Shown here piece after piece: positions 1 through 16,470 of a stretch of 16,470 bases of DNA. Every line of letters starts with the position of its first letter. The stretch's first letter is position 1. The notes below the pieces were generated by a model. That model was not told the origin of the DNA. It worked only from the letters and a program-made list of their open reading frames with translations, and did no database searches. Both the position numbers and the translations under genes were made by a program. This stretch comes from Smittium mucronatum (lineage: Eukaryota > Kickxellomycota > Harpellomycetes > Harpellales > Legeriomycetaceae): the NCBI GenBank assembly GCA_001953115.1, contig LSSL01007677.1, positions 1 through 16,470 on the forward strand. Reading direction: 5' to 3'.

Positions 1-168
1 TTAATGTCGGAGATGGATCTGGAGACATATTCGATTCCATCCCTATGGTTTCCATGAAATTGGCTCCAGGCACACCCCACTTTTCTATCTGAACCTCCAA
101 TGCAAAATTTTTTCAAGCAGCGTTGGTCTCCTTCATGGAGCATGTGCTTGACTGAGACCTCTCAATAG
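1..168 (-). pseudogene. Ty3/gypsy retrotransposon RNase H fragment (decayed, runs off left edge)
   Basis: Read leftward on the minus strand, two overlapping frames together match the RNase H segment that follows reverse transcriptase in Ty3/gypsy polyproteins, whose consensus is F.LEVDAS..GVGA.LSQ followed by Y.SR.LS. One frame gives KNFALEVQIEKWGV (about 75-116); the other gives VGCAWSQ and, further on, GIEYVSRSIS, up to the window edge. Switching between the frames implies an indel near position 70-80. The first catalytic Asp (the D of DAS) is absent in both frames: Gln in one, Ser in the other. The stretch is clearly less AT-rich than the sequence to its right, as expected for an inserted coding element. 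The reverse transcriptase part expected upstream is not recognisable. This is an inactive remnant; a frame-aware search against gypsy Pol would settle it. Confidence 0.6.
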
Positions 169-258
169 AGGCTCATACCTATTAAGCTTTCGCTTAACAG
201 CGAAATTTTTTTTTGGGGGTTTCGTATTTTATCGTTTTTTTGGTGTTATGATTTTTTG

Positions 259-429
259 ATTTATTTTTGGAGTCAGCCGAATATCGGCCCTGAGCCCATG
301 GGAAGTTTACCAACACTTGATTTTGAAGACCCGTGGTGGACTTAATTGCAGTCTTCCCTTTACCAACCTTCGAACATAATGGCCTGGTACGTTTAGAGGG
401 TCTTGGCTCCTCCATGGTTGGTAAGCTTA
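259..429 (+). pseudogene. Possible Ty3/gypsy integrase fragment (weak)
   Basis: Two plus-strand frames resemble the junction between the integrase zinc region and the catalytic core in gypsy elements. The first (259-345) ends in PMGSLPTLDFEDPWW and then a stop, recalling the G.L..LP.P..PW motif. The second, overlapping one base off (336-429), reads VDLIAVFPLPTFEHNGLV, recalling the .MDFI..LP.S.GYNGI.V motif that holds the first integrase Asp. If correct, one indel separates them. It lies in the opposite orientation to the RNase H piece at the left edge, so the two would be separate or rearranged fragments. A 73-codon minus-strand frame also covers this stretch (194-415) and has no recognisable product. 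The call is tentative. Confidence 0.25.
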
Positions 430-1227
430 AAATAAAAAATCAAAAGGGCTTTCTATGTTTTCTTTCTATTTTTTTTTTTGATTTTAGGATTGAGAATCGG
501 AATTGAGATCTCAATCAATTTTTTTTTTTTTGTTTTCTTGCTCTTTTTTCTTATTAGAGCGTTTATTTATCGGTAAAAACTAAGTACAGATAGCCTGTAT
601 ACAATATACAGCTCTCTGGTACTATCTAGTCAGCTTTAAGCAGCTGGCTTAGTGTCGATAATATAAAAAATGGTAATAGAAATAAACTTTTTTTGGTAAT
701 GGAATTCAGAAATTTTATTGGCTAATTCAAATAAAAAAATCTAAAGGAAAGAGAGAGCCCTTTAATTACTGACTATTAATATTTTTATATCAGTCTGTAA
801 TCAATAAGGCAATCAATTTCTATCGAGCCTTCATTTTAGAAAAATTTCCAAAAAAGTCCATAGACCACCAAGGGCTTTATAATAGATTGATGAAAAGGAT
901 ATCCAACTGAAAAGATTTGATAGTTGTAAATTCAAATTCAAATTTAGAGTTTTGTTTTAAAAAAAGCATTTTTTAGATAAAGCTAAGGCATATTCAGTTT
1001 CCTCGGATTAAAGGGTGCTAAATAAAAATTAAAAAAAAATTGAACGAAAATTGCATTAGATTTTCAGAGCCAGAGATGCAAAAATTTAATTTATATTTCG
1101 GTTATTACAATAATTTTAATAAGATTTGAATTTGACAATTAGGATAAATCACTTTAATATCTGGCGGAAAGTGTTGAATTATTCAAATAAAAATTAAGTC
1201 ATTTTAAGAGCCTGAAATGATTAAAAT
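430..1227. other. AT-rich intergenic region downstream of the channel gene
   Basis: No reading frame or RNA gene that I can support. It holds T and A homopolymer runs. A compact perfect inverted repeat, ctgtata-caa-tatacag, lies at 594-610, and a second small one, taagc-agctg-gctta, at 637-651. The right end should carry the 3' untranslated region of the minus-strand channel gene; an AATAA-like motif lies within about 60 nt of its stop codon, but no cleavage site can be assigned. Confidence 0.5.
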
Positions 1228-4200
1228 CTAAAGACTGTTTGGTAAAGTGGTACACAAAATGTAGACCTTATCTGAAGAGTTAAGTACAGTTGTTTGCTTC
1301 GGATTGGCTACAAAGAAATTAACGACTTGCCCAGTTGATTGAGTCTCTATAGAATGTTCATTGACATTTCCTGCACTTGAACTAGAAGATGAACTATATC
1401 CTTTTACAACTGCTAAACTGTTCCTGTATAACCCAAGACAGATTCCATTGTGTTTGAAAATGAAGTAGCTGAACAAAGCGGAATAGGTCTTTCCGTAAAA
1501 ATCTTCAGGAACAGGCATCATAAATACATTACTATCTAATTTGGAACCACCACCTTTGATATTTTTTGGAATCTCAGAAATAGGCAGTCCTGCAGATACC
1601 ATCTTGGAATATTCGACATCATGTGTGATGTCGCCGTTTGGGAATATCATATTCTTGACAATTGAGATCAAATCTTTGTTATAAAAAGTTTGGCAAATCA
1701 ATGTATCGAGCATTACTGGAGCCGAACAATTCCCAGACATAAAGCAAGGTCTAAAGAATGATTGTATGTATTCCTCGCTTATAACCAATTCGCTACTGGA
1801 TCCAATAAATTTCATATTTTCTCTATAGTTAAACTCAATAAACATAGAGAAATCTTTGTTATTGGCAGTTAAGTATTCTATGTTTAAAACCGCCAACAAA
1901 GTAAGAGAATCGGATGATGCGACGTTAATATCGGTTTTTTGAGACAAAGAAGCTCCACTAGAATAGCTGCTGGAGTAATTACTAATTAGAACAATGGCCT
2001 TTGAAGATGAAGATATATTCGCTTTTATTAATCCGTGTTTAGACAAAGGAGTCCCATTGACAAAAAACACAGAACCGTAACCTTCCAAAATAGTCTTGGT
2101 TTCACTGTCAGGTTCACAAGGACATAGAAAAACCACAGGCTGCATATTAGGGAAAGATGGGCTTTGGTTAATCTTTTCATCGGCGGTGTTAAATTCAGAA
2201 ACTTTTTTACCGTAAAAGTTGTAAAAAAATGATGTCTTATCAGTCGAAAGCTCGTTTTTAGTAGAAAGTGGATTATTATTGTTTAAAGAATTAGACTTTT
2301 CCAGTTCTTTTAGGTATACTTGAGATCCGTATATAGATGTTCTAATGCTCCCTACCAAATATTCCATATTAGGAGGGAATGATGTTCCAGTGCAACAAAT
2401 AACCACATGATTGTAATACAATGGTGCTGATTTTGTAGCAGATCCAGATGAATAATCAGAGTCGACCCTTTTTATAGTGGCACTGACCAGGTTAGATGAG
2501 GAGGAATGGATTTCTTTTGTCTCCGAAACTTTCGGGAAGGGGGTTTCCTTTGAATTTTCGGAAATGGGAATGGGGCTTTGAGATTTCTTCAAAATAGATG
2601 TACTGGAATCTGAGGGTAAAAGAATAGATATTTTAGTTTGAGAATTTTCATCAACGGTGGGGCTGGAGGGATTAATTTCTTCCTCACTATTAGTTTCAAT
2701 AGCCTCTGCGTTAAATATGCCAGAAGATTGAGGTAAAGAATCTTCATGGGTGAAGTCTTTTGGTTGATCTGGTTCCAAAAGTTGCAATATTGGAGAGGTT
2801 CCAAATGCCTCATTTTCATCAGTTGACAATTTATTTCCCTGATCCAATGGATGGTTATCCGGGTTATCCTCAGAAGAAGATACTATTATAGGATTCGGAG
2901 TAGGTACCTTCTTAGAATTTGAAGATTTGTCAATAATCACAGAATCCATCGTATTAGAAGCTAGCTTCGATTTAAAAATAACAGATGACAAAGAATCTTG
3001 GGGTTCGGATAAAAATGGTTGTGACTCATCAGAGTCGTTATTTAACGAAGAAAGAGAGGATTTTTTTACAGAAAGAATGGAATTAGGAACAAAGGAATCG
3101 GTGGAGATAATGAATCCAATTTCATCCCCAGTCAGTATATATCCAGTGGGATTGAGATATACTATATCGTTAGGGCCACTTACAGGAATATCAGATTCTC
3201 CAGAGACAAAATCGGGATTTATCTTTAAAGCAAATAGAATGGAGTTAAAATTTTTGTAAATGTAATGGGCGACTATAGAAAACTTCATTCCTTTGAAGAA
3301 TGGTGAAAATTTGGTGGGGTAGATTTCCTGGCCAAGGCCGAATATATATTCCTCTAAATAGGGGGAGTAATTACTAGATTTAACGGCTTTAATGAGCTGA
3401 TCAGTAGTATCATCAGGAATTGAAGTGAAAAGACCTTGGAGCAGAGATGAAAAGCCGGGAACGTTAATCCCAATTGCGAGAAGGCCCAAACGCAATTCAG
3501 GGATACAAATGATGTCCTTGGTGATATAATCCAGATGTAAAGATGTCTCTGGAAGTAAAGCCTGGGCATAAATGGGGGTGGATACGTTCTTAGAGATCAA
3601 AAAACGCCTTATAGCAAGACAAATCATGATTTTCTTAGAATCCTCTTCAAAAGATCGTGAATTGGAGTTTTTGTCGCTAAGAACAAATACTGAACTGGCG
3701 GAATGAGCATTGATAGCTTCGAGATCATTATAAGAGGTGGGGGAACCCAAAACAAAGCTAACAGAGCTGGAATAAACGGGATTCTTTAGGAGAGATTGAA
3801 TTTTCTTTGAAGGAGGATTTTCGCTCATGAGTACTACATTAGTGTTGACAATCTGAGGACCGTGATCCTCGCAATAAAATTCTCTGAGGAATTCAAATAA
3901 AGAGCCAAACCAAATATCACCTATAATAATGACGTGTTTTTGATTTGGTTCGGGGGAATAGGAAGAGCTCCAAGGATTGCGATCCTTAATTAGAGAAAGA
4001 ACACTTGACATTCTTTGAGGAAGCCAAAATATGCCTAAGAACAGAATAGAGATGGAGACTAGCCTAGTAAAAGTGCTGTCTGGAGCCACATCGGATTTGA
4101 GGCCAGTAACAGAGCTTACAGCAGTGAAAAAGAGTACATCAAAAAAATCGACAGGCTGACCATCAGCGGTATAGTTCTGAAGGCATAAAACGATGTGAGT

Positions 4201-4980
4201 TAGGGCGGTGATTGATAATACAGTGGAAAACACTACAATTATAGATTCTAAGGCTTGATTAGTAGCAGGATCATTTAATAAAGTATTCTTAACCGAGGAA
4301 AGAACTTTAACTAGGGAGTAATATAATCGAACAAATCTAACTGGATAAATAAAAACCCAAATCCCAGAAGACATGAGGGTATCGTAATAGATAGAAGGAT
4401 CGAGATAAATGTTGAGCAAAATCAGAAAAGGGGTCAAGATGGTAAGGAAGCTGAGAATGGAAAAAGAGCTGAATAGGAACTTTCTGGCATCGGGAGAAAC
4501 GTAAAATCGAGGCAAGAAAAGAAGGAAAAGAAGAAAGGACAAAGTCGAATCAAGGACTAAAAGGCGATAAGGCACTATATCATTAGCCTTGGTGATATAA
4601 GTGGTAAAGTATATAAACAAGGAACACATAAGAAAATTAAAGAAGGCATCTAGCTGATCCCATCGTCTTCCCAATGAGCTCGAGTTGAGATAGAAACTGA
4701 TTATTTGACGCTTAGTAGGATTGGAGTTTGAATTTCCAGAATTGGAATCTGGTTGAGTGAAAGAAGAGGATGCAGAAATTTCCAACTGTTGAGGGTCACT
4801 TTTACTTTTACGGGAACTACTCCTGCGGTAGAAACTGGGAGAAGGTTTCATTTTTGAGCTAGAGAAAAATGGGGATATAGCGCTGCTCTCGGAGGAATCG
4901 ATGGAGGGGACAACGATAGTCCCATCGTTTGATCCCTTATCATATTGCTGAAGAGACTTTGGTTTGGAGAATTTGTACAT
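1228..4980 (-). CDS. Slo/BK-like large-conductance potassium channel homologue with two RCK domains and an atypical pore
   Basis: A single uninterrupted 1250-residue frame with A at -3 of the ATG and a TAG stop. Order of parts: a Ser-rich N-terminal tail (1-104); a membrane block with hydrophobic helices near 112-130, 138-160, 168-193, 205-225 (S4-like, WVFIYPVRFVRLYYSL, keeping two Arg) and 243-268 (S5-like); a pore loop at 278-299; an S6-like helix at 304-332 ending in LPQRM..VLSLIKDR, like the end of Slo S6. RCK1 starts at KHVIIIGDI (349) and runs to about 630. A 220-residue Ser/Pro/acidic linker follows. RCK2 runs from HVVICCTG (858) to the end, including PCFMSGNCSAPVMLDTLICQTFY, which matches the BK segment just after the calcium bowl. 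In this family the RCK domains form a cytoplasmic gating ring that opens the pore in response to Ca2+, Na+ or other ligands. No extra S0 helix is seen. The selectivity filter reads VTGLKSD and the Asp-rich calcium bowl is missing, so ion selectivity and ligand are unknown. Family assignment is strong; function as a K+ channel is not. Confidence 0.93.
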   Translation of the reverse strand: MYKFSKPKSLQQYDKGSNDGTIVVPSIDSSESSAISPFFSSSKMKPSPSFYRRSSSRKSKSDPQQLEISASSSFTQPDSNSGNSNSNPTKRQIISFYLNSSSLGRRWDQLDAFFNFLMCSLFIYFTTYITKANDIVPYRLLVLDSTLSFLLFLLFLPRFYVSPDARKFLFSSFSILSFLTILTPFLILLNIYLDPSIYYDTLMSSGIWVFIYPVRFVRLYYSLVKVLSSVKNTLLNDPATNQALESIIVVFSTVLSITALTHIVLCLQNYTADGQPVDFFDVLFFTAVSSVTGLKSDVAPDSTFTRLVSISILFLGIFWLPQRMSSVLSLIKDRNPWSSSYSPEPNQKHVIIIGDIWFGSLFEFLREFYCEDHGPQIVNTNVVLMSENPPSKKIQSLLKNPVYSSSVSFVLGSPTSYNDLEAINAHSASSVFVLSDKNSNSRSFEEDSKKIMICLAIRRFLISKNVSTPIYAQALLPETSLHLDYITKDIICIPELRLGLLAIGINVPGFSSLLQGLFTSIPDDTTDQLIKAVKSSNYSPYLEEYIFGLGQEIYPTKFSPFFKGMKFSIVAHYIYKNFNSILFALKINPDFVSGESDIPVSGPNDIVYLNPTGYILTGDEIGFIISTDSFVPNSILSVKKSSLSSLNNDSDESQPFLSEPQDSLSSVIFKSKLASNTMDSVIIDKSSNSKKVPTPNPIIVSSSEDNPDNHPLDQGNKLSTDENEAFGTSPILQLLEPDQPKDFTHEDSLPQSSGIFNAEAIETNSEEEINPSSPTVDENSQTKISILLPSDSSTSILKKSQSPIPISENSKETPFPKVSETKEIHSSSSNLVSATIKRVDSDYSSGSATKSAPLYYNHVVICCTGTSFPPNMEYLVGSIRTSIYGSQVYLKELEKSNSLNNNNPLSTKNELSTDKTSFFYNFYGKKVSEFNTADEKINQSPSFPNMQPVVFLCPCEPDSETKTILEGYGSVFFVNGTPLSKHGLIKANISSSSKAIVLISNYSSSYSSGASLSQKTDINVASSDSLTLLAVLNIEYLTANNKDFSMFIEFNYRENMKFIGSSSELVISEEYIQSFFRPCFMSGNCSAPVMLDTLICQTFYNKDLISIVKNMIFPNGDITHDVEYSKMVSAGLPISEIPKNIKGGGSKLDSNVFMMPVPEDFYGKTYSALFSYFIFKHNGICLGLYRNSLAVVKGYSSSSSSSAGNVNEHSIETQSTGQVVNFFVANPKQTTVLNSSDKVYILCTTLPNSL

Positions 4981-5050
4981 TTTAAGACTATGTTACGAGA
5001 ACAGTTTACAGGGCCAAGCAATATTGTACCCAGAGTGGGTATGTGGGAAG

Positions 5051-5059
5051 TAATATATA
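5051..5059 (-). promoter_or_regulatory. TATA-like element upstream of the channel gene
   Basis: On the minus strand this reads TATATATTA, about 72 nt before the channel start codon and in a less AT-monotonous context than most of the window. Position and sequence fit a core promoter, but AT-rich sequence produces such matches easily. No transcript data are available to confirm it. Confidence 0.3.
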
Positions 5060-5487
5060 GAAATGAAGGCTAAGGGCTGAATATTGACTGACCCAAACAA
5101 GAAGCACTTAATCTATTTGTTTATTAAAGAAGTCAACACACAAAGATTGCCGATTTATAAATCCAGCCAATTTGATGAAACGGATGATTTATTAGCCCAG
5201 TCAAGTTTTTGAAGCGGAAAATTAGTAAAATCAGTGCATATTGAAATCGGCTAATAAACCCATTAAGACAATGCCATGCTGCTTTCTGGACCCAATTGGC
5301 GACGATTGCGGAAAATTATGACACCCCAAAGATATCTAGCTGAGACTCCATACGTTTATAGACACCAAATTCCGGGATTAAAAAAAGAAAGAATCACCAT
5401 CTCTGATCCGGTTTGTTTTGTGCCCAAAATGAAGCCCAGTAATCATTCGATATTTCGAACACCCTCTCTAAAGTCCGAATACTATTC

Positions 5488-5716
5488 GATTTGGATTAGG
5501 CAGGCTTTTTTTTTGTATCACGGAATTTTATGGATTAGGCAGGCTAAAAGCTTAAATGATATCCGATTTGGATTAGGCAGACTAAAAGCTTAAATGCTGT
5601 TTGGTTCGGATTAGGTAGGCTAAAAGCTTAAATGATATCCGATTTGGATTAGGTAGGCTAAAGGCTTAAATGATATCCGATTTGGATTAGGCATGCTAAA
5701 AGCTTAAATGTCTATT
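5488..5716. repeat. 38-bp tandem repeat array, about 5 units, first unit split by an insertion
   Basis: Units of exactly 38 bp start at 5565, 5603, 5641 and 5679. An earlier unit starts at 5488 and resumes at 5546 after an insertion. Each unit holds the core ggattaggcaggct, then aaaagcttaaatg and usually atatcc. Differences between units are single substitutions; the third and last units differ most at their 3' ends. Removing the insertion and one copy of its target duplication restores the first unit to the consensus. The array lies about 0.5 kb upstream of the channel start codon, so it may sit in that gene's regulatory region, but no function is visible. Confidence 0.95.
5507..5530 (-). 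mobile_element. Extremely truncated poly(A) retroposon tail (copy 1) in the tandem array
   Basis: On the plus strand a T run (5506-5514) is followed by gtatcacggaatttta. The reverse complement, taaaattccgtgatac plus poly(A), is identical to the 3' end of the second copy near 15.8 kb. The flanks are direct duplicates of tggattaggcaggct (5492-5506 and 5531-5545), the expected size for target-primed reverse transcription. The inserted body is only about 16 nt plus the A tail. Part of the duplicate could reflect the tandem array itself, but the flanking unit is otherwise restored exactly when the insertion is removed, and the tail identity with copy 2 is independent evidence. Confidence 0.8.
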
Positions 5717-6316
5717 TTCTATTTTCCATCATCTTTTTTTATTATTTTTCACGGATGCCTATTTCGATCATTTGCTGATTAAAACATGGGGGAAAAGCGA
5801 TCAATAAACAACCAACTTTCGCTCACCGTATATATGTGGCAAATACCTAATGATACTGGCCAATAGATTTAGAGACTTCTTTTGGAATTGAAGAATCTAA
5901 GCTTGAATTAGGCTGAATGGTTAGCCCAGACAGCGGTTCTGGCAATTTGGCACTTTTTTTTGGATTATGGTCGCATTTTTAGTTTTAATGTTTTCAACGT
6001 CAAAAATCTTGCTTTATCTACAAATTGAATTGAATAATATAATAAGCAAGTCCGCATTTATTGATTACATATTCAAGCAATTGATGTACCAATATGTCAA
6101 AAGACACACTTTCTATACATCAAAAGATTCCCTGTCTCACCCAACTATTTTTTTTAACTCCCTTTCATTTTTTTTACTATAAATTAAATTTACGCAGCAC
6201 CAAATTATTACATTGTGCCAAATTTAATTTCTACCCCTAAATCAATTTTTGACTCTATTTTACGCTATATTTTGAAGAAATAAAATTTACGATACAAATA
6301 AGTTCAGGTATAAAGC
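5717..6316. other. Intergenic region, no supported gene
   Basis: It contains T-rich runs and a plus-strand frame of 71 codons (5967-6182) with AT-driven composition and no recognisable motif. Near 5896-5925 the words ctaagctt and gaattaggct recall the 38-bp repeat core and could be a strongly diverged outlier unit. Nothing else is supported. Confidence 0.4.
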
Positions 6317-6529
6317 TTATTTTAAATCCTTACTCTTAGAATTTGAGGATATCTTCAAATTAATATTGGCCTTCAAAAAAAATATTATATGTAATTTAGA
6401 TCCCACAAAGGCTAATAGACATACTGGTGATAAGATTAGTAATAGCGCTGCATTAATCCCTAACTTTCTTTTTCTTTTTTTACTTGATACAGGATGAAAC
6501 TTTATAGGGGAACTATTGTGATCGTGCAC
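6317..6529 (-). CDS. Possible last exon of a small single-pass membrane protein (hypothetical)
   Basis: A minus-strand frame of 70 codons. It begins at a GTG directly after an acceptor-like attatag at 6530-6536, so it reads better as a 3' exon than as a complete gene; there is no in-frame ATG at the start. It encodes a polar stretch, a basic cluster KKRKRK, then a hydrophobic helix LGINAALLLILSPVCLLAFV, and a Lys/Ser-rich tail before TAA. Codon choice is more varied than in the surrounding AT-rich sequence, which favours real coding. No upstream exon could be fixed and the family is not recognised. It may equally be chance or a remnant. Confidence 0.27.
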   Translation of the reverse strand: MHDHNSSPIKFHPVSSKKRKRKLGINAALLLILSPVCLLAFVGSKLHIIFFLKANINLKISSNSKSKDLK

Positions 6530-6536
6530 CTATAAT

Positions 6537-7192
6537 TATAAAAGAATTCAGTTTAAACTCCCCTCCCTCCCATTTATTTGTTTAACGCTATCAAAAAAAT
6601 TTAATCGAATTATCATAGGTACTATTTTTTATGTTGTTTAAATAAAAACTCCGAGAAAAATACAAAAAAAAATTATCATATAACTAAATCCCCCTAAACC
6701 CATAAAAAATATTGTATAAATCACATCATATAAGCTCTCCAGAAATTTTACAATCACCTCAATGATGAGATTTACAAAGTACTTTAGGAAATATGATATA
6801 AAAGAAAAGAATAAATTTCATAATCAATGATTGTAAAGAATTGTGAAATTGAAAAAGACATAAGATAATATTTGAAACATGTTATTTTTTTCAACTAAAA
6901 ATTTAGGCAATACCTAAAGGATTTTAGTTTATATTTCCACTAAAAAATTGTGAAACTAATTTCCAAAAATACTAGCAAAAAAATGCTACATTCTTTTACT
7001 AAAGAATGTTATATAAATTAGTAACTCTATTTATGAATACATAAAAACAAGCATCTACCACTTTATTTAATTGAGTTTATATATCTATTAACTATAAAAT
7101 AAATAAATTGAAACTGAAACTGAAACAACTTGATTTTGTGTTTGTAAATTTATCGTAGGAAAATTAGAATTTTGTTTTTGTTTTTTAAAGGG
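6537..7192. other. AT-rich intergenic region with small inverted repeats
   Basis: No gene seen. It contains a perfect 9-bp-arm hairpin (6988-7009), a 5-bp-arm one, ttagg-caata-cctaa, near 6903-6917, and three tandem copies of gaaact near 7110-7127. It lies directly left of the pogo-like element. Confidence 0.4.
6988..7009. repeat. Perfect hairpin, 9-bp arms and 4-nt loop
   Basis: Reads acattcttt-tact-aaagaatgt. It sits in non-coding DNA with no adjoining gene, so no role as terminator or RNA can be assigned. Confidence 0.6.
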
Positions 7193-7194
7193 TA

Positions 7195-7217
7195 CAGGTA
7201 ACCCTCGTTATTTGCGG
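7195..7217 (+). repeat. Left terminal inverted repeat of the pogo-like element
   Basis: Of 23 bases, 21 match the right end in inverted orientation; the two differences are an A/T and a T/C. Beyond this core similarity fades, though both ends continue with CG-containing words (cgcg, attcacg). Confidence 0.95.
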
Positions 7218-7441
7218 TTTTATTTTTCGCGTTTTTCGCAAATTCACGAAAACGAAAAAAAAATGCTAAATTCTTTTTTGGATATTTTTATTTTTCGTGA
7301 TTTTACTGATTTCCAAATAATTGGTTCCATTATTTGATTTCGATAATGATTTTTTATAAAGTATATTTCTTTTGCTAGTGACTTTATAAATACTAATAAA
7401 AATCTTATCCGAAGATAAACCATTTGAATAATAGTTAAAAT

Positions 7442-8973
7442 ATGGAAATTTATAAAGAAAAAAGGAAAAGGTTGCAATCTCCTATACCCGAAAAGATAGA
7501 AATTCTAGATGCTCCCTCCAACGGAGAAAGGGTCTCAAAGGTGGCAAAAATGAAGGAAATTAACGAAAGTACCTTAAGGGTGATCACGAAAATATCCGGA
7601 AATTTGAGAGAAATCGAAAAATAAAAATCAGATTATATCATTAAGAAATCTTATTACCAGAGACCTGATATAATTTCGAATGTCGAAAGAAATCTAAAAG
7701 TATGGATAGATATTCAAATAAAAAAACAGCTATCGCCACATATACGGCACGAATAAGGGCTATATCATTATTGATTCAGCTCTATGAATTATATCCAAGT
7801 CAGAAGGATGTAAAATTTGAGGCCAGCAATGGCTGGTTTGAAAATTTCAAAAAACGGGAGGCTTTGCGCAGTATAAAATTCACTGGTGAGATAGCTAGTG
7901 CCGATCATGAATCCGATAGGTAATTTCCAGAAAAATTAAGTAAAATAATTTTTGATGAAGACTATCTCCAATTTCAGGTAAAAACGCCCTCGATTTTTTT
8001 TATTTAGAAAGATAAAACTGAATTTTTTATTGTTAGATTTTATAATAGATGATACATGTTTATTTCAGGAAAAAAATTCCATCAAGATCCTATGATTCTG
8101 ACTCGGAAAAGGTTTTTTCCGATTTAAACCAGCCAGAGACAAAATTACACTGATGCTTGGGTCCAATTCACCAGGAGATTGCAGGCTTAACTTATGGTCA
8201 TCAACACATTCGAAACTCCAAGATCGTTTGGAGGGGGCGGGGGTGACCTCCCTGTGATTTGGGGGCCTTGGAAAAAAAGCTACATGACCAAATATATATT
8301 TGAAAGCTACTTCAAAAATTTGCTTTATTCATAATTGGAAGAATACTGTAAAAAAAAAACAATCAAAATACTCTTGTTGATGGAAGACTGATATGTTCAT
8401 ATCAAGGATCTTTCAGAAATTTTTGGGGAAATAAATGTTGTTTTTATGACTTCAAACACATCTTCATTGATAAAACCAATGGAATAAGGAGTTATATTAA
8501 CATTCAAGACTCACTATTTGAAAATTTCGTTAGAGATTCTAAATGATTCCGTTACTGGCGGAGTTTCAGCACAGGAATTTCGGAAAAGATTTAACATCAA
8601 AGATTGTATTAAAATGCTATCGGTTTCTTGGAGTCTTGCTCCTCAGTCGTGCCTTATTGGAATTTGGAAAAAATTAATGCCTTATATTGACGATAAAGAA
8701 TATTTGTATATAATCTTGTAAATATCGGAGTTAAAAATATCATTTTTGTACATGGTGCATAGTATGGGATTCAACGAATTAATATTAGATGATATTAACA
8801 ATGCTCTATATAGGAATAATTTGGATGATGAAGGTTTTGAAGATGTTTCAAATCATACAGGATCTAGTTCATCGGAAGAGGGGACGGGATTTGATGGAAT
8901 AAATATAGAAGAAATACCAGCTATACATAAATGCATATATCTCTTTGAAAAAGGTATTAAGATTTTATGTTAG
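7442..8973 (+). pseudogene. Broken pogo/Tigger-family transposase (CENP-B HTH, Tc5-type HTH, DDE/DDD core)
   Basis: It starts at an ATG 247 bp inside the element. Residues after KRKR (EKIEILDAPSNGE...INESTLRVI) match the CENP-B N-terminal helix-turn-helix. A TAA ends this frame at 7622. The second DNA-binding domain follows, first as VWIDIQIKKQLSPHIRHE (to about 7757), then after a frameshift as FEASNGWFENFKKREALRSI and GEIASADHES, ending in TAA at 7921. The core continues in pieces: FPEKLSKIIFDEDYL, then a roughly 60-90 nt disruption over the NADE catalytic motif, then KKIPSRSY, then RDKITLMLGSNSPGDCRL, and a long frame from about 8197 with stops at TAA near 8330, TGA 8389 and TAA 8485. That frame holds DLPVIW, and LLLMED in place of LLLVDNAPGH. 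It also holds KPME-stop-GVI in place of QPMDQGVI. The C-terminal part is 8518-8721, and an acidic tail frame, 8746-8973, follows. Several independent lesions make it non-functional. Confidence 0.92.
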
Positions 8974-10097
8974 AAAGATAAAGATCCAATTAGGCCGGGA
9001 CAGATGAAAAAAGCCATAAAAATTTCACTTCAAAGTTACCATAAAGTAGTTCGTGATTCAAAAAATGAAGACAAAGGTCAATCCTAAGCTTTTTTCATTC
9101 AGAAAATAGCTTTTATTGGGATTTTTTTTTATTCATATAAATTTTAATCTGGGGCTGGTTGTTCTAATTAAATAAACTCGAAATTATTTTTATCCAATTA
9201 ATTTTGATATTTCATAAAATTTTCTTTCATTTTAGTATTCTCCGATTTTTATTTTTCAAGATTTAGACCTCAAAACTTATAAAAAAAGGCTCAAAACAAT
9301 TGAGTTTTTAAAATAAAAAAACCATATGAAATTAATAAAAGGATGTTTAGATCTTTATAAAGAAGTTTGCGACGAAAATATTCTAAATCTGTAATTTATA
9401 AACCGAGATATACATTCAGATATTAATATACGATATTCATTTTTTAAAACAATAGCCCTAACCTTCGGGTTTTTTATCAACGAAAAAATATTACTGGCTT
9501 AAATGTATATTCTCGGATAATAAATATGGTATATTAACTGAGAATTAGTTTCTTAATCCAAAAAATAAATAAAGTGTTTATAATAATTAAATTGTAAAAT
9601 TCCTGGATTTTAGGATTTAATCGCCATAATTCTTATATTAGAATAAAAATTCATGGATTAGTAGATGTTACTTTTTTGAAATTTTCTTATTAAAGACCTA
9701 TTTCTATTTTATTTATTCATATAGATCCTCAGAAAGATCATATTTATTTTAACACATCTTACTGGTTTTTAGAGCCCTAATATTTACTCCAAAGATGCTT
9801 ATTTATAAACGGAAATTTAAAAAATGAATTTCTCATAGGTTTTAATGTTTTGATCTTTTGTCATATTTTAGCCTTATAAGAGATGCCAGATTGTAATTAT
9901 TTTGTGTTATAGCTAGGATGGATGCCGTTTAGAAGTTTTTACTTATAAACATCATTGATAAATTTCTTCTTATAATATTTAAATTGCCAATCAATTTGAT
10001 TTTTCTTTTCTTTTTTTTCTCAATTTCGAAATCAATTATACGCGACTTTTTTCTATTTTTTTTTCATCTAACCAAAATAAATAAGGATCTTTCTTTC
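8974..10097. other. Non-coding AT-rich right half of the pogo-like element
   Basis: No frame or RNA gene that I can support. It includes a weak four-pair stem with a ttcg loop and T run near 9460-9475, judged chance, and pyrimidine-rich tracts from about 9990 onward. The excess length over typical family members could be an older nested insertion too decayed to recognise. Confidence 0.5.
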
Positions 10098-10220
10098 ATT
10101 ATTCGCGGGTTTTATTCTTTTTTTATTTCATTTTTTTTTCACCATTTGGCTGCAATGCCTGCATATTGACATTTTGATTTGAGCGATTTCTAATTCACGC
10201 GATTTTTTTTTGGTAATTAT

Positions 10221-10243
10221 CCGCGAATAACGAGGGATACCTG
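10221..10243 (-). repeat. Right terminal inverted repeat of the pogo-like element
   Basis: Inverted partner of 7195-7217, immediately followed by the TA duplication. A third, similar word, cattattcgcgggttttatt, lies just inside at 10098-10117 in the same direction as the left end. Confidence 0.95.
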
Positions 10244-10314
10244 TAACATACATATGTCGCTAAAAAATAACCTCTAACAATAAAATACTGGCTCGAATCT
10301 ATGGATATATATAT

Positions 10315-10402
10315 GGATCACTGAAATTAGAAACCCCATGTGTTCATCAGTAAAATTGCACCATCTACCACTAAAAATCTAATTTTATTTTTTATTGGTT
10401 AC
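10315..10402 (+). repeat. Left terminal inverted repeat of the MULE, with repeated internal motif
   Basis: Contains atcactgaaatt, atcagtaaaatt and ccactaaaaatct at about 20-30 bp spacing, each aligned with a counterpart in the right end. Such repeated words in terminal repeats are often transposase-binding sites; that role is inference. Confidence 0.8.
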
Positions 10403-11543
10403 TTCTGTAAATAAAACTGCTATATTAGATCTAGAGAGTATTGCAGATACGCAACCTAATACATTAAATTTTATATTAGAATTTGACTAAAAAATACCTT
10501 TAACTATTGGGCCTCAAAATCTCGAAATAATCTTATTTAATAAAAAAAGCTCATTTTTTTGGGTAAATACATATCTAAAATATCAAACTATAATAAAAAT
10601 AAACTGTTGTTTAAGATATTCTTAATCTTTAACCATACTTTTTTTTAACTTTGATACAAAATTACAGAACTTATTGAAAATGAAAGTAAATTTACTTCTT
10701 TCATATAAAAAATAAATAAATATATTCTGAAAAAATTTACTCTATCCTAAAGAAAAAATCGATTAAAAATCCAGAGATCAAATTTTACTGAAAATTTACA
10801 ATTTTTCTCTCTTCACTAGAAACCATTGCAAATAATAGGAATTTTTTAAATAAATTTCTAATATGGATTAGTTTGCTGAAATACCGTGATTAAACATCAA
10901 GGATACAAAATCTATCAGCTCTAAAAAAATACTATAATCCCACCTTATTAATTCTGTTATTCAATAGTTATCCTTGGATTAAATAAGATACCTAAAAAGT
11001 CGATTATGATATCATTATAATATTTTCTTAATAATCCATCGATACATATCTTATCTTAGTGTAAATATATCTCTAATTTATCGTTTTGGTTTAAAAGCCC
11101 CTAGATTAAGCAAAAAATACCCTAAATAAAGAAAAAAAATATTTCAATTTGAAATTCTTTGAAAATTCGGAAATTTTATAAAGTGTGAATTGATTAAATT
11201 AATTTCATAGTGTTATAATGACTTTGAATAATATATAACCGAATTTCCTGATATTTAGTGAGATTTTAATGCATCTATTTATGAATATTATTTATATTGC
11301 TACAAAATATCTAAATAAGTTTTAATCTTTGATGATAAATCTACTCCCAAGTTAATTTTATTGTATTTTTAGTCGAGAGTTGATTAAGATGCAATTATTT
11401 CCAAAAATAATAATAAAATAACTGAAAAAGTCAACAGAATTCATCTATATTTAAATTTATATTGTGAAGTAATAATCAAAGAATGATTATTTTATTGATT
11501 CTGAAATCATGTTTCAAATTTTAAAAAAATCGATAAAGTTTTT
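10403..11543. other. Non-coding AT-rich part of the MULE, left of the transposase
   Basis: No frame longer than chance and no recognisable motif on either strand. By position it is the 3' flank of the minus-strand transposase inside the element. Confidence 0.5.
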
Positions 11544-12907
11544 TTAAATATTTTTCGGTCTTCCTCTTTTTTTGGCATTATAAATGTATCTACTAAATTT
11601 TATTTTTTACCTTTCAAAAATGAATGTAAATTTTCAAATTTCCATTTTATTATAAGTTCCGTTAAGAAAATTTCAGAACTTTATAGCTTGGAAGACTCCT
11701 TTTTATTATTATTGTTAATATATTGATAGTTATAAATTTCATCACATCAAAATTTTCAAAAGATTTGCTTTTCAACTTTGATAAATATGAAATAGTGGAC
11801 CCGATCTCACTTACTAATATTGCATATTTTTTAATCCCTGATCTTCAAAAATTAACATGTGATTAAAAAAATTTATCTAAAAGGACAAAATCATCCTTAT
11901 ATACTGGCATTTTAGTGTTTGGTAATTTTGTTTTTGCAATATCAGTCATCATTTCCGGAATAATTTTGAAGGAATTGACTAAATTTTTTTCCTCCAATAA
12001 TGCGTGCCCTGTTTTAATTATTCTGCTAAAACTTTTGAGTACATTGTTACTGCTGGGCGAAAATTTTTCGTAACCTCAATACCAGTTTCTGTTTTTTATG
12101 AAATAATTTTCATTCAGTCTGCTCAATATAACACTCAACTCGGAAAAAACTATTCATTTTTTTTAAAAAGTCTCCACTATATTATTTAATATCTTTTCTG
12201 AAAAATGATTTTGTATGAAATTCGCATCGGCTTTCAGATCCCCCCTGAAGCTTTTTTCTACAGTTTTAAAAACATCATTTATGTTTTTTAATTATGCGCC
12301 CAAAAACTCACCCTTTTAGCGTTAGGATTGATTTTCTTGATCTCAGATGATATTTGAGGAGCTGAGTCAGAAATTGTAGCTTTAAAGCCCCAATTAGCAC
12401 CTTGAAATTATAGTAATTTTTTTGTCTCGTTAAACGATCTATTATTGTTTCCTCGTTTTGATCTTGGACAATTCCGACTAAAGAAATAAAGAAAGATATA
12501 GAAAAATCGATAAGTCCAACTACAAACACTGAGTATCCAACATCTATAAGTCTTTATGTCATATCTAAGTGGATTTTATCATTATTTGATAGGTGCCTAC
12601 TACATATTTTTGATGTAATAGGCAGTTTGAAGTCGCCGCTTTTTACAACGCGATTGAAAAAATATCCGGAGTATTCATTATCATAATTTGAATTATTTTT
12701 GCAGTGATCTTCAATTTCACTTAAAGTCATTCTTTTTAAATGTCTTAAGGCTGAATATACTTGAATACCACAGGAATAAACACAGCTTCCATTTAATTCC
12801 AAATTTATTTGAAGTGGTTTCGTGTTTTGCGTTTGGTATATTTTTTTAGCTTGTTTAAATAAGGATTCGATTTTAATGATATTACGGCAACTGCCCCTAT
12901 GTATTCC
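11544..12907 (-). pseudogene. Broken MULE transposase
   Basis: Pieces in the correct minus-strand order. (1) 12907-12554: an open stretch without ATG, ending KICSRHLSNNDKIHLDM, resembling the R.LS..D segment before the catalytic core. (2) About 12551-12308: VGLIDFSISF, then QDQNEETIIDRL and FKVLIGALKLQFL, matching the MULE core pattern F.FL..E.EE.Y.W.L followed by P.VLITD.ELAL.NAI; the Asp of ITD is Gly here. (3) About 12150-11863: NRNWY-stop-GYEKFSPSSNNVLKSF, then IIKTGHALLEEKNL, matching the WYEG...PSTNNALESFN..IK segment. (4) 11576-11544: AKKRGRPKNI then stop, matching the KRGRP tail that follows the SWIM zinc finger. The SWIM CxC...CxH itself is not legible. Stops and frameshifts separate all pieces. 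No one piece is decisive, but four in order between matched inverted repeats are convincing. Confidence 0.75.
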
Positions 12908-13230
12908 CTAGTAGAATATTCTGTACGTTCCTGAAGCTCTTTCATAATCTATTTTTGCTAAAGCCTCTCAGACATTATGCGACTTATTTGAGCAATAATA
13001 ATATGTTATGATGTAACTTAAAAGCCTATTAGTCCTAAAAATATTCCAATAATTTCAAAAAGTATCAATGTTATTGTAATGAATGAGTAATGTCTATTTT
13101 TGGCATGTTTGATAATATGGTATCATTTAAACTTAAAATTAAATTATAAAAAATAAGAAGGGTGATTGCTCTTTACTGATATTTGTTGTTGTTTTTGTTT
13201 TTTTCATTACTAAAAATAAAATAAAAAGTG

Positions 13231-13318
13231 CCCAATATAAAAAAAAACCGAAATTTAGGTGATAAATGGCGCAATTTAAGTGATGAAACATTTTTGATTT
13301 CTAATTTTAGTGATACAT
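13231..13318 (-). repeat. Right terminal inverted repeat of the MULE, with repeated internal motif
   Basis: On the minus strand it holds atcactaaaatt, atcacttaaatt and atcacctaaatt (plus strand 13303-13314, 13273-13284 and 13252-13263). A fourth relative, atcattgaaatt, lies just outside at 13323-13334, which suggests that the element extends further right. Confidence 0.8.
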
Positions 13319-13360
13319 CCATAATTTCAATGATCCGGGCAATTATTCGGTAGATAAAAT

Positions 13361-13951
13361 TTGGATTTTATTTTTTAAACATTTTTCCAGTTTTTCGAAT
13401 ATAAATTAAGGTGATAGATTGAAATAAATTAAAGTAGAAACTTTTCTCAAGTTCTTTTTTTCTTTTCCCACTTGAGTTTGGAAGTGTTCAAATAGAATTT
13501 TATGAATATTTTAGAAAAAAGAGTGTTTATCTTTTTTTTAATTGCTATTGCGAGTTTAGAATATACTGGAATCGGGTTTTTCGGATTTCAATCGCAGCAT
13601 TCAAATACTGTCATGAGTTTTTTACCTTTGGCTTACAATATTTCGCATATTTTTTAAATGTAAATTTTAGCCCCATTCCCACCCAAATACATGCTTGATG
13701 TTCTTTCGATTTTATGGATCAAATTTAAAGAACTCCTTCTCTTATATGGGATGATTTTTAGATATTTATCTGTTATAAACATTGAACCGCTAGTTTGATG
13801 TTTATACATCTTTGAGCCGATAAATGAGCCATCTGTGCTGTTAAAATTTCAAGAAACTTACCATGTGACATCATTTTTTTATTATTACTCAAGCTCCCGT
13901 GATAAATTTTTCATAATATGTAAAAATAGTTATTAAAAGATAAAATAGTTC
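13361..13951. other. AT-rich region between the MULE and the piggyBac-type relic
   Basis: No supported gene. It may hold the degraded 3' part of the minus-strand piggyBac-type transposase, but the Cys-rich C-terminal zinc domain of that family could not be read. A short inverted repeat, ctcaagt...acttgag, lies near 13446-13476. Confidence 0.4.
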
Positions 13952-14880
13952 TAAATAAATGCTTTATACAACTTTTCAAAGTTATAGGTGTATTTTAACA
14001 GTATCTTTTAAGTCTTAAAAGATCATCCCTATCTACTCAACCCACTCCTCACTGGTACTTTGAAACCATGTTTGATTCCGTTATTGTTAAAATATTCAAA
14101 TTTTCATTTTTTTTAACAAAGCTCATATTATTTTTTGTCCACTTGAAATCAAATTTAACGAATTTGTATATAAACAAGACATTTCAACTATTGTGACGAT
14201 CGTATCACATTTTGAAATCACTGTAGTATTCCTTTATCTGAATCCAGACTTTATAGAAATATAAAAGTTTTTTGGGCAAACCAAACCATTTTAGATTATT
14301 TTTTCAACTGCATAAAGCCCAATCGTCTAAATATGAAAAAATAATCTGACCGAAGTGAATTATCTATCGAAATAAAGTATCATCTTTGTTCCATCAGCCG
14401 GTCTCAAACACGAAACATCCCTACAAGAGATATGGTGCCGGTTTTAGCGAAGAGAGTTTTAGTTTTTATCTGTTGTAAATATAATTCTTCCAGCATAAAT
14501 TTTAAAGCCGTTACAGTAAGAAAATTTGACAATTCAAACCAGTAACAGTTTTTCACCCCATTTTTGGGTCTTATTTTTTTTTTTTATAAACTCTAATTGG
14601 CATCATTTTGCCACGTTTAGGCAGCATAGCTTTGTAAAAAACCATTTCTCGACCCAGTTTAAATGCAAATTTGAAACTCGATGTTAATTTTTCAATAACT
14701 GGTATAATTTTCAACAATATACGAATTGACCTTCTAGGATAAATTTTATCTGAGAAGTGTAGAATCTGTAGGATATATTCAAACACATTTTTACTCATAT
14801 AATTACTAAAATTTCTTGATCTTATGCACCAAAATAATTTTCACTCCATTGATTTTGTATAACTCCTCCATTTGGTTTTA
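13952..14880 (-). pseudogene. Broken piggyBac-type transposase
   Basis: Pieces in minus-strand order. Near 14870-14830, QWSENYFGA recalls the dYW segment. 14798-14574 gives MSKNVFEYILQILHFSDK, then IIPVIEKL and LGREMVFYKAMLPKRGK. These match MSR.RF..ILR.LHFSD, then RPVI..L, then PGR..SIDESM.PF.GR. The first catalytic Asp is Tyr (codon 14636-14634) and the adjacent Glu is Lys. A 13-A run near 14571-14583 shifts frame into IRPKNGVKNCYWFEL, the KP.KWGIK.W.L motif. Then ISIDNSLRSDYFFIFRRLGF (about 14375-14310) matches the IDNFFTS..LF..L segment and keeps the second Asp (14364-14362). Finally VSKYQ-stop-GVG-stop-VDRDDLL (14060-14020) matches MGGVD..D and keeps the third Asp (14033-14031), followed by a basic helix with IKHLF. 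Multiple stops make it inactive. No TTAA-flanked ends were found. Confidence 0.88.
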
Positions 14881-15639
14881 GTTTTCGAGTTAAAAGAAAC
14901 CATGGGTGATGATAATCTTTATTGCCAATAGATCATTAAAATAATGGATTTTTGCCCCTTCAATTTCTACAAAATATCTTTTATACCAGATCATTTGTTA
15001 TACTCATTTTTCATTCATTCTCACAATGAAATTTTCATCAACATCAAAAGAAAATCCAGAGGTGAATAAACAAATCTTGTATCCATAGCTGTTAATTCTG
15101 CATCGTATTTAAAAAATATTTTCTACATTTAGTTTTTTTTTTTGATTGACCAAGTAAGATAATTTAGAATTTTTTTTCCTTTTCTAGTACTTGAAGGTGA
15201 AAATTAATTTATGTCTGACCTAATTGACTGTATTTTTTAGCCGAGATCATCTATATTAATCTCTAATATATCAGTACCCTCTCTCAAAATTTCAGAATCA
15301 TTTTCTGGTATAATTCAGCAATAGGAGTCGAAATTTTTCAGCAAAAAATCTTAATTAGAAACTCTTTCAAGAAATTTATTATATTTTTATATTCTATCTT
15401 AATAATTAAATTTACCATCTTTAATATCAAGATAAATAGTAATGATATAAATATAAATTATCGATGAAATAGTTAGGATAATTTTTTTTCTTGTTCATCA
15501 TTGGTGTTTCAAATGCCAATCATTGAAACCAAGAATAAATTAACTGCTTTTTTACTTATGATATGTTTTATTTCAGCAATGGATTTAATTATACTAGCCG
15601 TTTCACAGCTGAATTCATGGGTAGAATTTCTGTCACTAT
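14881..15639. other. AT-rich region, no supported gene
   Basis: The left part may hold the degraded N-terminal region of the piggyBac-type transposase (minus strand, to about 15000), but nothing diagnostic is legible. Several pyrimidine runs ending in AG look like splice acceptors by chance. The right end overlaps a plus-strand frame (15563-15790) that I regard as the shadow of the minus-strand remnant next to it. Confidence 0.4.
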
Positions 15640-15937
15640 TTATTTTTTACAGCAGAATTTTTTCATAAAAATTGTTAAAAACTTTGAACATTATTCTGTT
15701 TCTTTATCAAACCCATCGGGGATAAGCCAAGACCATTTCTCCCGAGTAATTCGTAAAATTTATTCATCCAATAAAAGCTTTTCAAGGTAAAATTTACTTT
15801 TTTAGTATAGTTTTTAATGACGTTATCTTACAATAAAATTCCGTGATACAAAAAAAAAAAAGGTAAAATTTACCTTCAAATTGAACCCATTAGATTCCAT
15901 CGTGAAGCTTTTTTTCGAGGTTTTTGGAACGATCTCC
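15640..15937 (-). pseudogene. Unrecognised decayed coding stretch interrupted by a retroposon tail
   Basis: When the retroposon tail at 15798-15861 and one copy of its duplication are ignored, one minus-strand frame runs across the empty site. It begins GDRSKNLEKKLHDGI, passes over the site as FEGKFYLEKLLLDE, then reads ILRITREKWSWLIPDGFDKE, and ends near SKFLTIFMKKFCCKK. Three in-frame TAA codons break it. The amphipathic, charge-balanced composition is unlike the surrounding AT-rich DNA and suggests former coding sequence. I do not recognise the family; another transposase or retroelement protein is as likely as a host gene. That the frame stays in phase across the inferred empty site supports both inferences. 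Confidence 0.4.
15798..15861 (+). mobile_element. 5'-truncated poly(A) retroposon (copy 2) with target-site duplication
   Basis: About 52 nt of sequence ends in AATAAA (15832-15837), 12 more nt, then A12 (15850-15861). It is flanked by the direct repeat aaggtaaaatttac (15784-15797 and 15860-15873). A polyadenylation signal at the right distance from a genomic A tail, enclosed in a 14-bp duplication, is the hallmark of target-primed reverse transcription by LINE machinery. The last 16 nt before the tail, taaaattccgtgatac, recur exactly in copy 1 near 5.5 kb in the opposite orientation, so this is a repeated family and not a one-off. Whether the source is a LINE, a SINE or a frequently copied mRNA cannot be told from the tail alone. 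Confidence 0.85.
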
Positions 15938-16449
15938 ACTCCAGTGGTATATAATATAGGTGGATAAGACCCTTTGAACAGATTTTTAGCTTTTTTTTAA
16001 CTCATTCAAATTTCGACTTAACTTCAATTTCATTCCCAAATTAGTTTAAGCTCTAAAAAATTATAGCTGACTAAAAACGATAAAATTTCATGCATTTTTC
16101 AGTTTAATTAACTTTAATAATGCTTAAATTTGAACAAAACTTTTTATTAACTGATTATCAAAAAAAAATCTGAAACATTTTTTAACAAAATCTCTCTGAT
16201 TTCAAAAGATATAATACTACTTAGGAATTTAAAATCAGAATATTATAAATATTAATTAAAAAATAAAAAAGATAAATCTATCTCATTCTTTATTTTATTG
16301 AAAACTTTCTGAGGCAGATAATGATCTAATACAGAAATGAAAAAATGATACTGCCTTTCATTGCAAAAAATTATCCAAGCGCATAAATGGTGTTGTCTAT
16401 GACTTGTAGGGTTAAGAATAATCAGATTTTTTTAATTTTCAAAATAAAC
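15938..16449. other. AT-rich terminal region, no supported gene
   Basis: No convincing frame or RNA gene. The word gggttaa at 16409-16415 is the kind of terminus expected for a piggyBac right end, but no inverted partner was found. Confidence 0.4.
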
Positions 16450-16470
16450 TTTTTTTTTTTTTTTTTTTTT
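16450..16470. repeat. Poly(T) run at the contig end
   Basis: Twenty-one consecutive T. It most likely marks an assembly break at a homopolymer. It could also be the A tail of another minus-oriented retroposon, which cannot be tested because the sequence stops here. Confidence 0.9.

Follow-up and report, generated by a model that had tools for sequence, protein, structure and literature searches.

Results

An uninterrupted Slo-type reading frame on the minus strand

The window analysed here is a 16,470-nucleotide stretch of the Smittium mucronatum genome (GenBank assembly GCA_001953115.1, contig LSSL01007677.1, positions 1 to 16,470). It contains a gene for a Slo-type channel subunit with a non-canonical selectivity filter. 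The open reading frame (ORF) spans 1250 amino acids on the minus strand without interruption (4980-1228; Table 1) and is the only one in the window of at least 150 amino acids. The initial annotation of this DNA correctly described 1250 codons free of stops, but read the filter from plus-strand codons. That assignment is wrong because the ORF lies on the minus strand and the single plus-strand frame translated from position 3400 is filled with stops.

The protein matches two Pfam models well above their cut-offs, the Slo-like RCK domain (PF22614, 130.3 bits in two stretches, cut-off 24) and BK_channel_a (PF03493, 72.9 bits, cut-off 26.8), and the RCK domains reported in the initial annotation are therefore present. 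PF21014 (14.5 bits, cut-off 24.2) and the general ion-channel pore model (11.8 bits, cut-off 22.5) stay below theirs. In a phmmer search against the PDB, the closest solved structures are Drosophila and Aplysia Slo1 (7pxe, E 1.9e-27). The protein has both the RCK1/RCK2 domains and the Slo-fold membrane domain of the Slo family by descent. Residues 1-95 are rich in Ser and Lys without a hydrophobic stretch, and judged by eye no S0 helix is seen there. The nearest named protein, P0002, comes from Smittium culicis, a harpellalean of the Kickxellomycotina, and shares 62% identity (780 of 1250 residues).

Table 1. Position and basis of the features assigned to the channel gene
Feature	Positions	Strand	Basis
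Slo-type channel subunit ORF, 1250 amino acids, uninterrupted	1228..4980	-	ORF translation, Pfam, phmmer against PDB
S1-S4, predicted, residues 102-230	4291..4677	-	structure model
S5, predicted, residues 238-272	4165..4269	-	structure model
Pore helix, predicted, residues 279-292	4105..4146	-	structure model
Non-canonical filter T292-G-L-K-S-D297 against TVGYGD, no gaps	4090..4107	-	phmmer, profile, MAFFT
SSVTGLKSDVAPDS, residues 289-302, peptide quoted in the initial annotation	4075..4116	-	codon positions
S6, predicted, residues 303-333, with P321	3982..4074	-	structure model, profile
RCK1, residues 346-466, best PF22614 stretch	3583..3945	-	Pfam
BK_channel_a, residues 489-585, PF03493	3226..3516	-	Pfam
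D372, counterpart in RCK1 Ca2+ site	3865..3867	-	aligned to Aplysia Slo1 D356 / human BK D367
E552, counterpart in RCK1 Ca2+ site	3325..3327	-	aligned to Aplysia Slo1 E525 / human BK E535
RCK2, C-terminal part, residues 1075-1186	1423..1758	-	weak Drosophila Slo match, third domain, 6.6 bits

Replacement of the filter motif at equal length

Between the pore helix and S6 the protein reads SSVTGLKSDVAPDS (4116-4075), where Slo channels have STVGYGDVYAKT. The initial annotation quoted this 14-residue peptide, which is indeed present, but placed it at 4084-4116, an interval that holds only its first 11 residues. It also proposed that one or two residues had been inserted into the filter. Three kinds of alignment lend this no support. 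The phmmer alignment with Drosophila Slo is gap-free from the pore helix through S6 and sets V-T-G-L-K-S-D on S-T-V-G-Y-G-D. A profile built from 14 fungal pore segments, picked among 58 fungal proteins that cover the loop (see below), gave 92 PDB matches at E up to 10, the best 60 of which were listed. KcsA chains and the Slo2.2 pore are at the top (E 0.00075, 0.0013, 0.0015), and all five profile alignments displayed are gap-free across the filter. In a MAFFT alignment of 74 proteins, the window protein is also gap-free over residues 279-306 against three relatives with a GYG-type filter, P0048, P0049 and P0074. Since all three alignments run across the loop without a gap, an insertion is not supported, and by sequence the change is from T-V-G-Y-G-D to T-G-L-K-S-D with zero residues inserted. 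In the window protein, L and S thus occupy the positions aligned to both glycines of GYG.

Structure comparison gives weaker and mixed support for this register and does not settle the question of an insertion, the alignment ranges being given as end points only. In the second, better model, 5 of the 50 structure-alignment rows begin at D297 (model residue 202), which is paired with human Slo1 292 in four rows and with Aplysia Slo1 281 in one. Counting in the phmmer alignment identifies Aplysia 281 as the Asp after the filter, and we take human 292 to be the same residue.

Distribution of the motif among fungal relatives

We searched for related proteins by word matches, with about 8000 candidates scored per search, and obtained 74 distinct proteins including that of the window. 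Five were left out before the fungal counts: the GYG-type P0048, P0049 and P0074, whose non-fungal placement follows from the tree and not from a species name, P0073 from Albugo, and P0052, which has no pore. P0063, which carries the Umbelopsis loop, was counted with the fungi. The fungal set thus comprises 69 rows with the window protein, of which 58 cover the loop; the other 11 come from incomplete proteins or from gene models in which some of the loop is missing or changed. With 32 rows, Coemansia-type proteins have a large share in the raw counts.

The motif T-x-G-Y/F-G occurs in none of the 69 fungal rows, which bears out the loss of the GYG/GFG core, and only P0048, P0049 and P0074 are GYG-type among all 74 proteins. 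The initial annotation had suggested looking for close relatives with a normal TVGYGD, and this test came out negative. Likewise, among the roughly 8000 candidates scored per search, no fungal-named protein with GYG at the filter turned up. Instead, [TSN]-G-[LM] is present at residues 292-294 in 55 of the 58 covering rows, and 46 of the 58 carry the complete motif [TSN]-G-[LM]-x-[ST]-D. The rows fall into 24 distinct 13-mers, for example SSITGLSSDIEPD in Coemansia, SSTNGMSTDLVPD in Funneliformis, SSTSGLSTDLVPD in Dispira and Tieghemiomyces, SVTSGLSTDIVPD in Boothiomyces and TAANGLSTDIVPD in Cladochytrium. The fungal rows belong to Kickxellomycotina, Dimargaritales, Glomeromycotina, Umbelopsis, Calcarisporiella and chytrids, group names that, other than that of S. 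culicis, we presume from the species names. The earlier proposal of a Slo-derived channel with an altered filter therefore stands, but its spread is far wider than the single lineage to which it had been ascribed.

We regard an assembly error, a frameshift or a lone mutation at the filter as vanishingly improbable, and nothing in the analysis spoke for it. The ORF is intact, P0002 is identical at 28 of 28 residues over 279-306, and the short motif recurs in nearly all covering rows.

Some rows depart from the common pattern. In P0060 (Umbelopsis) and P0063 the loop is SSVSSIRTDIVPD, and the remaining filter glycine is gone too. In P0004 and P0007 of S. culicis, Lys replaces the conserved filter Asp at D297 (SSVTGLSSKVNPD). 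Five rows have Asn or Gln at this position, and position 296 is Ala in P0003 and Val in P0068. In addition, part of the P-loop is left out or scrambled in the gene models of P0062, P0066, P0069 and P0071 (Glomeromycotina) and P0050 (a chytrid). Models lacking the P-loop probably reflect an exon missed by automatic annotation, though real skipping may occur; P0050 looks mis-spliced. The gene model of P0073 (Albugo laibachii) has no readable filter between the pore helix and S6.

Separation of the fungal proteins from GYG-type channels

An unrooted maximum-likelihood tree was built from 27 sequences over 333 alignment columns that span S5 through RCK1, with the filter columns removed. Its 20 fungal sequences were our choice out of the 69 fungal rows. 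They are split with an ultrafast bootstrap of 99 from an outgroup of six GYG/GFG-bearing Slo proteins (Slo1 of Drosophila and of Aplysia, chicken Slo2, P0048, P0049 and P0074) and the oomycete Albugo. Glomeromycotina (three sequences), Coemansia (two) and Dimargaritales (two) are each recovered as a group, and the four chytrids are not united in this unrooted tree. Some of the inner supports are low (47 for the placement of Umbelopsis, 52-61 inside the outgroup), and the outgroup branches are long. The simplest reading would be one replacement event, on the branch that separates the fungal from the GYG side. Judged from its sequence, the protein is a member of the Slo clade by descent.

Constraint on the pore loop

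For an entropy scan, we used rows with no more than one gap in 280-310, ignored gaps elsewhere and applied sequence weights at 80% identity, for an effective number of 26.2. The P-loop (279-306) has the lowest mean entropy of all 28-residue segments in the membrane domain (0 of 216 are lower), and 37 of 497 segments are lower when RCK1 is included. For the stretch 289-301 the counts are 3 of 231 and 38 of 512, respectively. Residue 293 is Gly in 56 of the 58 covering rows, residue 297 is Asp in 50, and residue 301 is Asp or Glu in all 58. The scan rules out a relaxed, dying pore; given this conservation, a pore that is decaying or ignored does not fit.

This conservation bears on the possibility that the protein conducts little or not at all, its gating ring being retained to sense Ca2+ or to act as a scaffold, or that it functions only in heteromers. 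A precedent is Trypanosoma brucei TbK1, which, in the part of PMC6974456 consulted, is described as having no conserved filter and as needing TbK2 for significant currents. TbK1 resembles the fungal proteins as a channel homologue without a conserved filter; the likeness is one of description only, and the dependence on TbK2 belongs to TbK1. Several fungal gene models without a P-loop, or with a scrambled one, point the same way, although these are probably mis-spliced. Against it, the P-loop is the most, not the least, constrained stretch of the membrane domain, and no fungal-named GYG protein turned up among the candidates scored. We therefore consider such a protein improbable. The initial annotation offered the alternative that the RCK assembly has been retained for some other role; since the P-loop tops the conservation of the membrane domain, this is less likely.

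The near-invariant glycine at residue 293 raises another alternative, namely that the channel is still K+-selective and that T-G-L-x-S-D is a simplified filter of the kind found in Trk/Ktr/HKT transporters, where only one glycine is retained in the pore loops. The short fungal motif, in our view, resembles T-x-G-L-S-T of the Ktr/Trk loops, and the rest of the loop best matches K+ channels (KcsA, Slo2.2). However, the glycine aligns to the V of TVGYG and to neither G in the gap-free register, and 2 of the 58 rows (Umbelopsis and P0063) lack it. Moreover, none of the 14 pore segments has a TrkH match in Pfam at E up to 10, and kinship with Trk/Ktr was rejected on this result. Retained K+ selectivity is thus unlikely in our judgement.

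Conservation of gating elements

According to PMC9414842, the residues that bind Ca2+ in RCK1 include D367 and E535 in human BK, which correspond to D356 and E525 in Aplysia Slo1. Both acids are kept in the fungal proteins, D372 in 69 of 69 rows and E552 in 68 of 69 (one gap), in a comparison that covers only these two among several ligands. In S6, 66 of 69 rows have P321, the other three having a gap there, and its register matches the LP of Slo2.2.

Surroundings of the channel gene

A tandem repeat with a 38-bp unit in 4.7 copies lies at 5531-5710, about 550 bp upstream of the start of the channel gene. Possible remnants of a Tc5/CENP-B type transposon are found on the plus strand at 7669-7923 and 8488-8718 (HTH_Tnp_Tc5, E 2.7e-4; DDE_1, E 0.038; both under the Pfam cut-off). 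A transposase fragment on the minus strand at 14571-14840 is above the cut-off (DDE_Tnp_1_7, E 4e-7) and is presumably piggyBac-like.

Discussion

Comparison with known channels places the fungal proteins near Slo channels in their frame and apart from them at the filter. With Slo1/BK (KCNMA1) and Slo3 they have in common the membrane-pore frame, the RCK gating ring and the RCK1 Ca2+ acids, and these channels are the best PDB matches of the window protein. Unlike Slo1/BK and Slo3, they lack TVGYG/TVGFG; no Ca2+ bowl is recognisable in them, and by eye no S0 is seen at the N-terminus of the window protein. At the end of S6, the fungal LP comes earlier, where Drosophila and Aplysia Slo1 have CIPEI/FIPEI instead. 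In Slo2/KCNT1 the S6 LP is in register, and the Slo2.2 pore domain is the third-best match of the P-loop profile among those listed. Slo2.2 carries TVGYGD, however, which the fungal rows do not. Plant CASTOR/DMI1 are RCK channels with a non-GYG filter; they also combine an RCK-type ring with an altered filter, but belong to a different protein family.

The TVGYG filter is regarded as the hallmark of K+ channels. With neither of the GYG glycines in the fungal filter, the canonical K+ geometry is unlikely, and it is reasonable to suppose, as the initial annotation proposed, that K+ selectivity may be altered or lost. Our data suggest that the protein may be a Slo-derived cation channel controlled by its gating ring, with a rebuilt filter that is probably not K+-selective, the reading that we prefer, with the case for it evenly balanced. 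A Slo-clade subunit would have been inherited from an early fungus, and its TVGYGD replaced, most simply once and at the same length, by [T/S/N]-G-[L/M]-x-[S/T]-[D/N]. The subunits would form a tetramer in which Ca2+ binding to RCK1 pulls the gate via the S6-RCK1 linker, as in Slo. L/M and mostly S/T at both GYG glycine positions would preclude the canonical K+ geometry, and the open pore would pass cations with weak or no preference for K+. Such a protein would work as a Ca2+-gated non-selective cation channel and not like BK. The weights we give to this and the competing readings are carried by the sequence evidence.

Several observations weigh against this reading. Some preference for K+ is possible since one nearly invariant glycine is left. 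The narrow filter (290-297) is less extreme in the entropy scan than the whole loop, with 19 of 236 transmembrane segments lower and 89 of 517 when RCK1 is included. The filter loop has a predicted local distance difference test (pLDDT) score of about 64-72 in a single-chain model, and its geometry is too uncertain to read. In the first, poorer model, nearby structure-alignment rows start at 200/280, 200/268, 200/272, 200/276, 202/293 and 202/313, pairings that disagree on the register of the filter. As for gating, the expected stretch for the Ca2+ bowl has no acidic run (in 59 rows the number of acids in the best 7-mer ranges from 1 to 4, and in 42 of these it is 2), so that no Ca2+ bowl is recognisable in the fungal rows in a scan in which BK was not scored as a control and the Aplysia Slo1 bowl falls just before the phmmer-aligned part. 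Ca2+ gating therefore rests on one site. The two RCK1 acids are also found in P0048, P0049 and P0073, and P0074 has only the Glu. Finally, S4 has only one near-invariant Arg, R218 (53 of 54 covering fungal rows), R215 being Arg in 21 of 54.

Databases label several of these relatives "calcium-activated potassium channel slowpoke". Because the TVGYG/TVGFG signature was tested for and is absent, we do not file the window protein as a K+ channel, and fungal proteins labelled "calcium-activated potassium channel" are probably mis-named. No description of fungal Slo filters was found in the open-licence literature searched. In PMC3410928, "Slo", "BKCa" and "RCK" occur zero times, though MthK is among its queries.

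A fungal Slo relative with a replaced K+ motif may pass other ions. Speculatively, and with rather less confidence than in a non-selective pore, the filter rich in S, T and D under a Slo RCK ring might admit Ca2+ or Na+ in early-branching fungi. If so, Ca2+ would depolarise the cell or trigger more Ca2+ entry instead of K+ exit, inverting the sign of the response. The new loop is conserved over deep fungal divergence. With the old filter abandoned, the gating ring retained and a new loop conserved, this branch of a classic K+ channel family would represent a natural experiment on filters, and these proteins are candidates for uncharacterised cation pathways in arbuscular mycorrhizal and zygomycete fungi.
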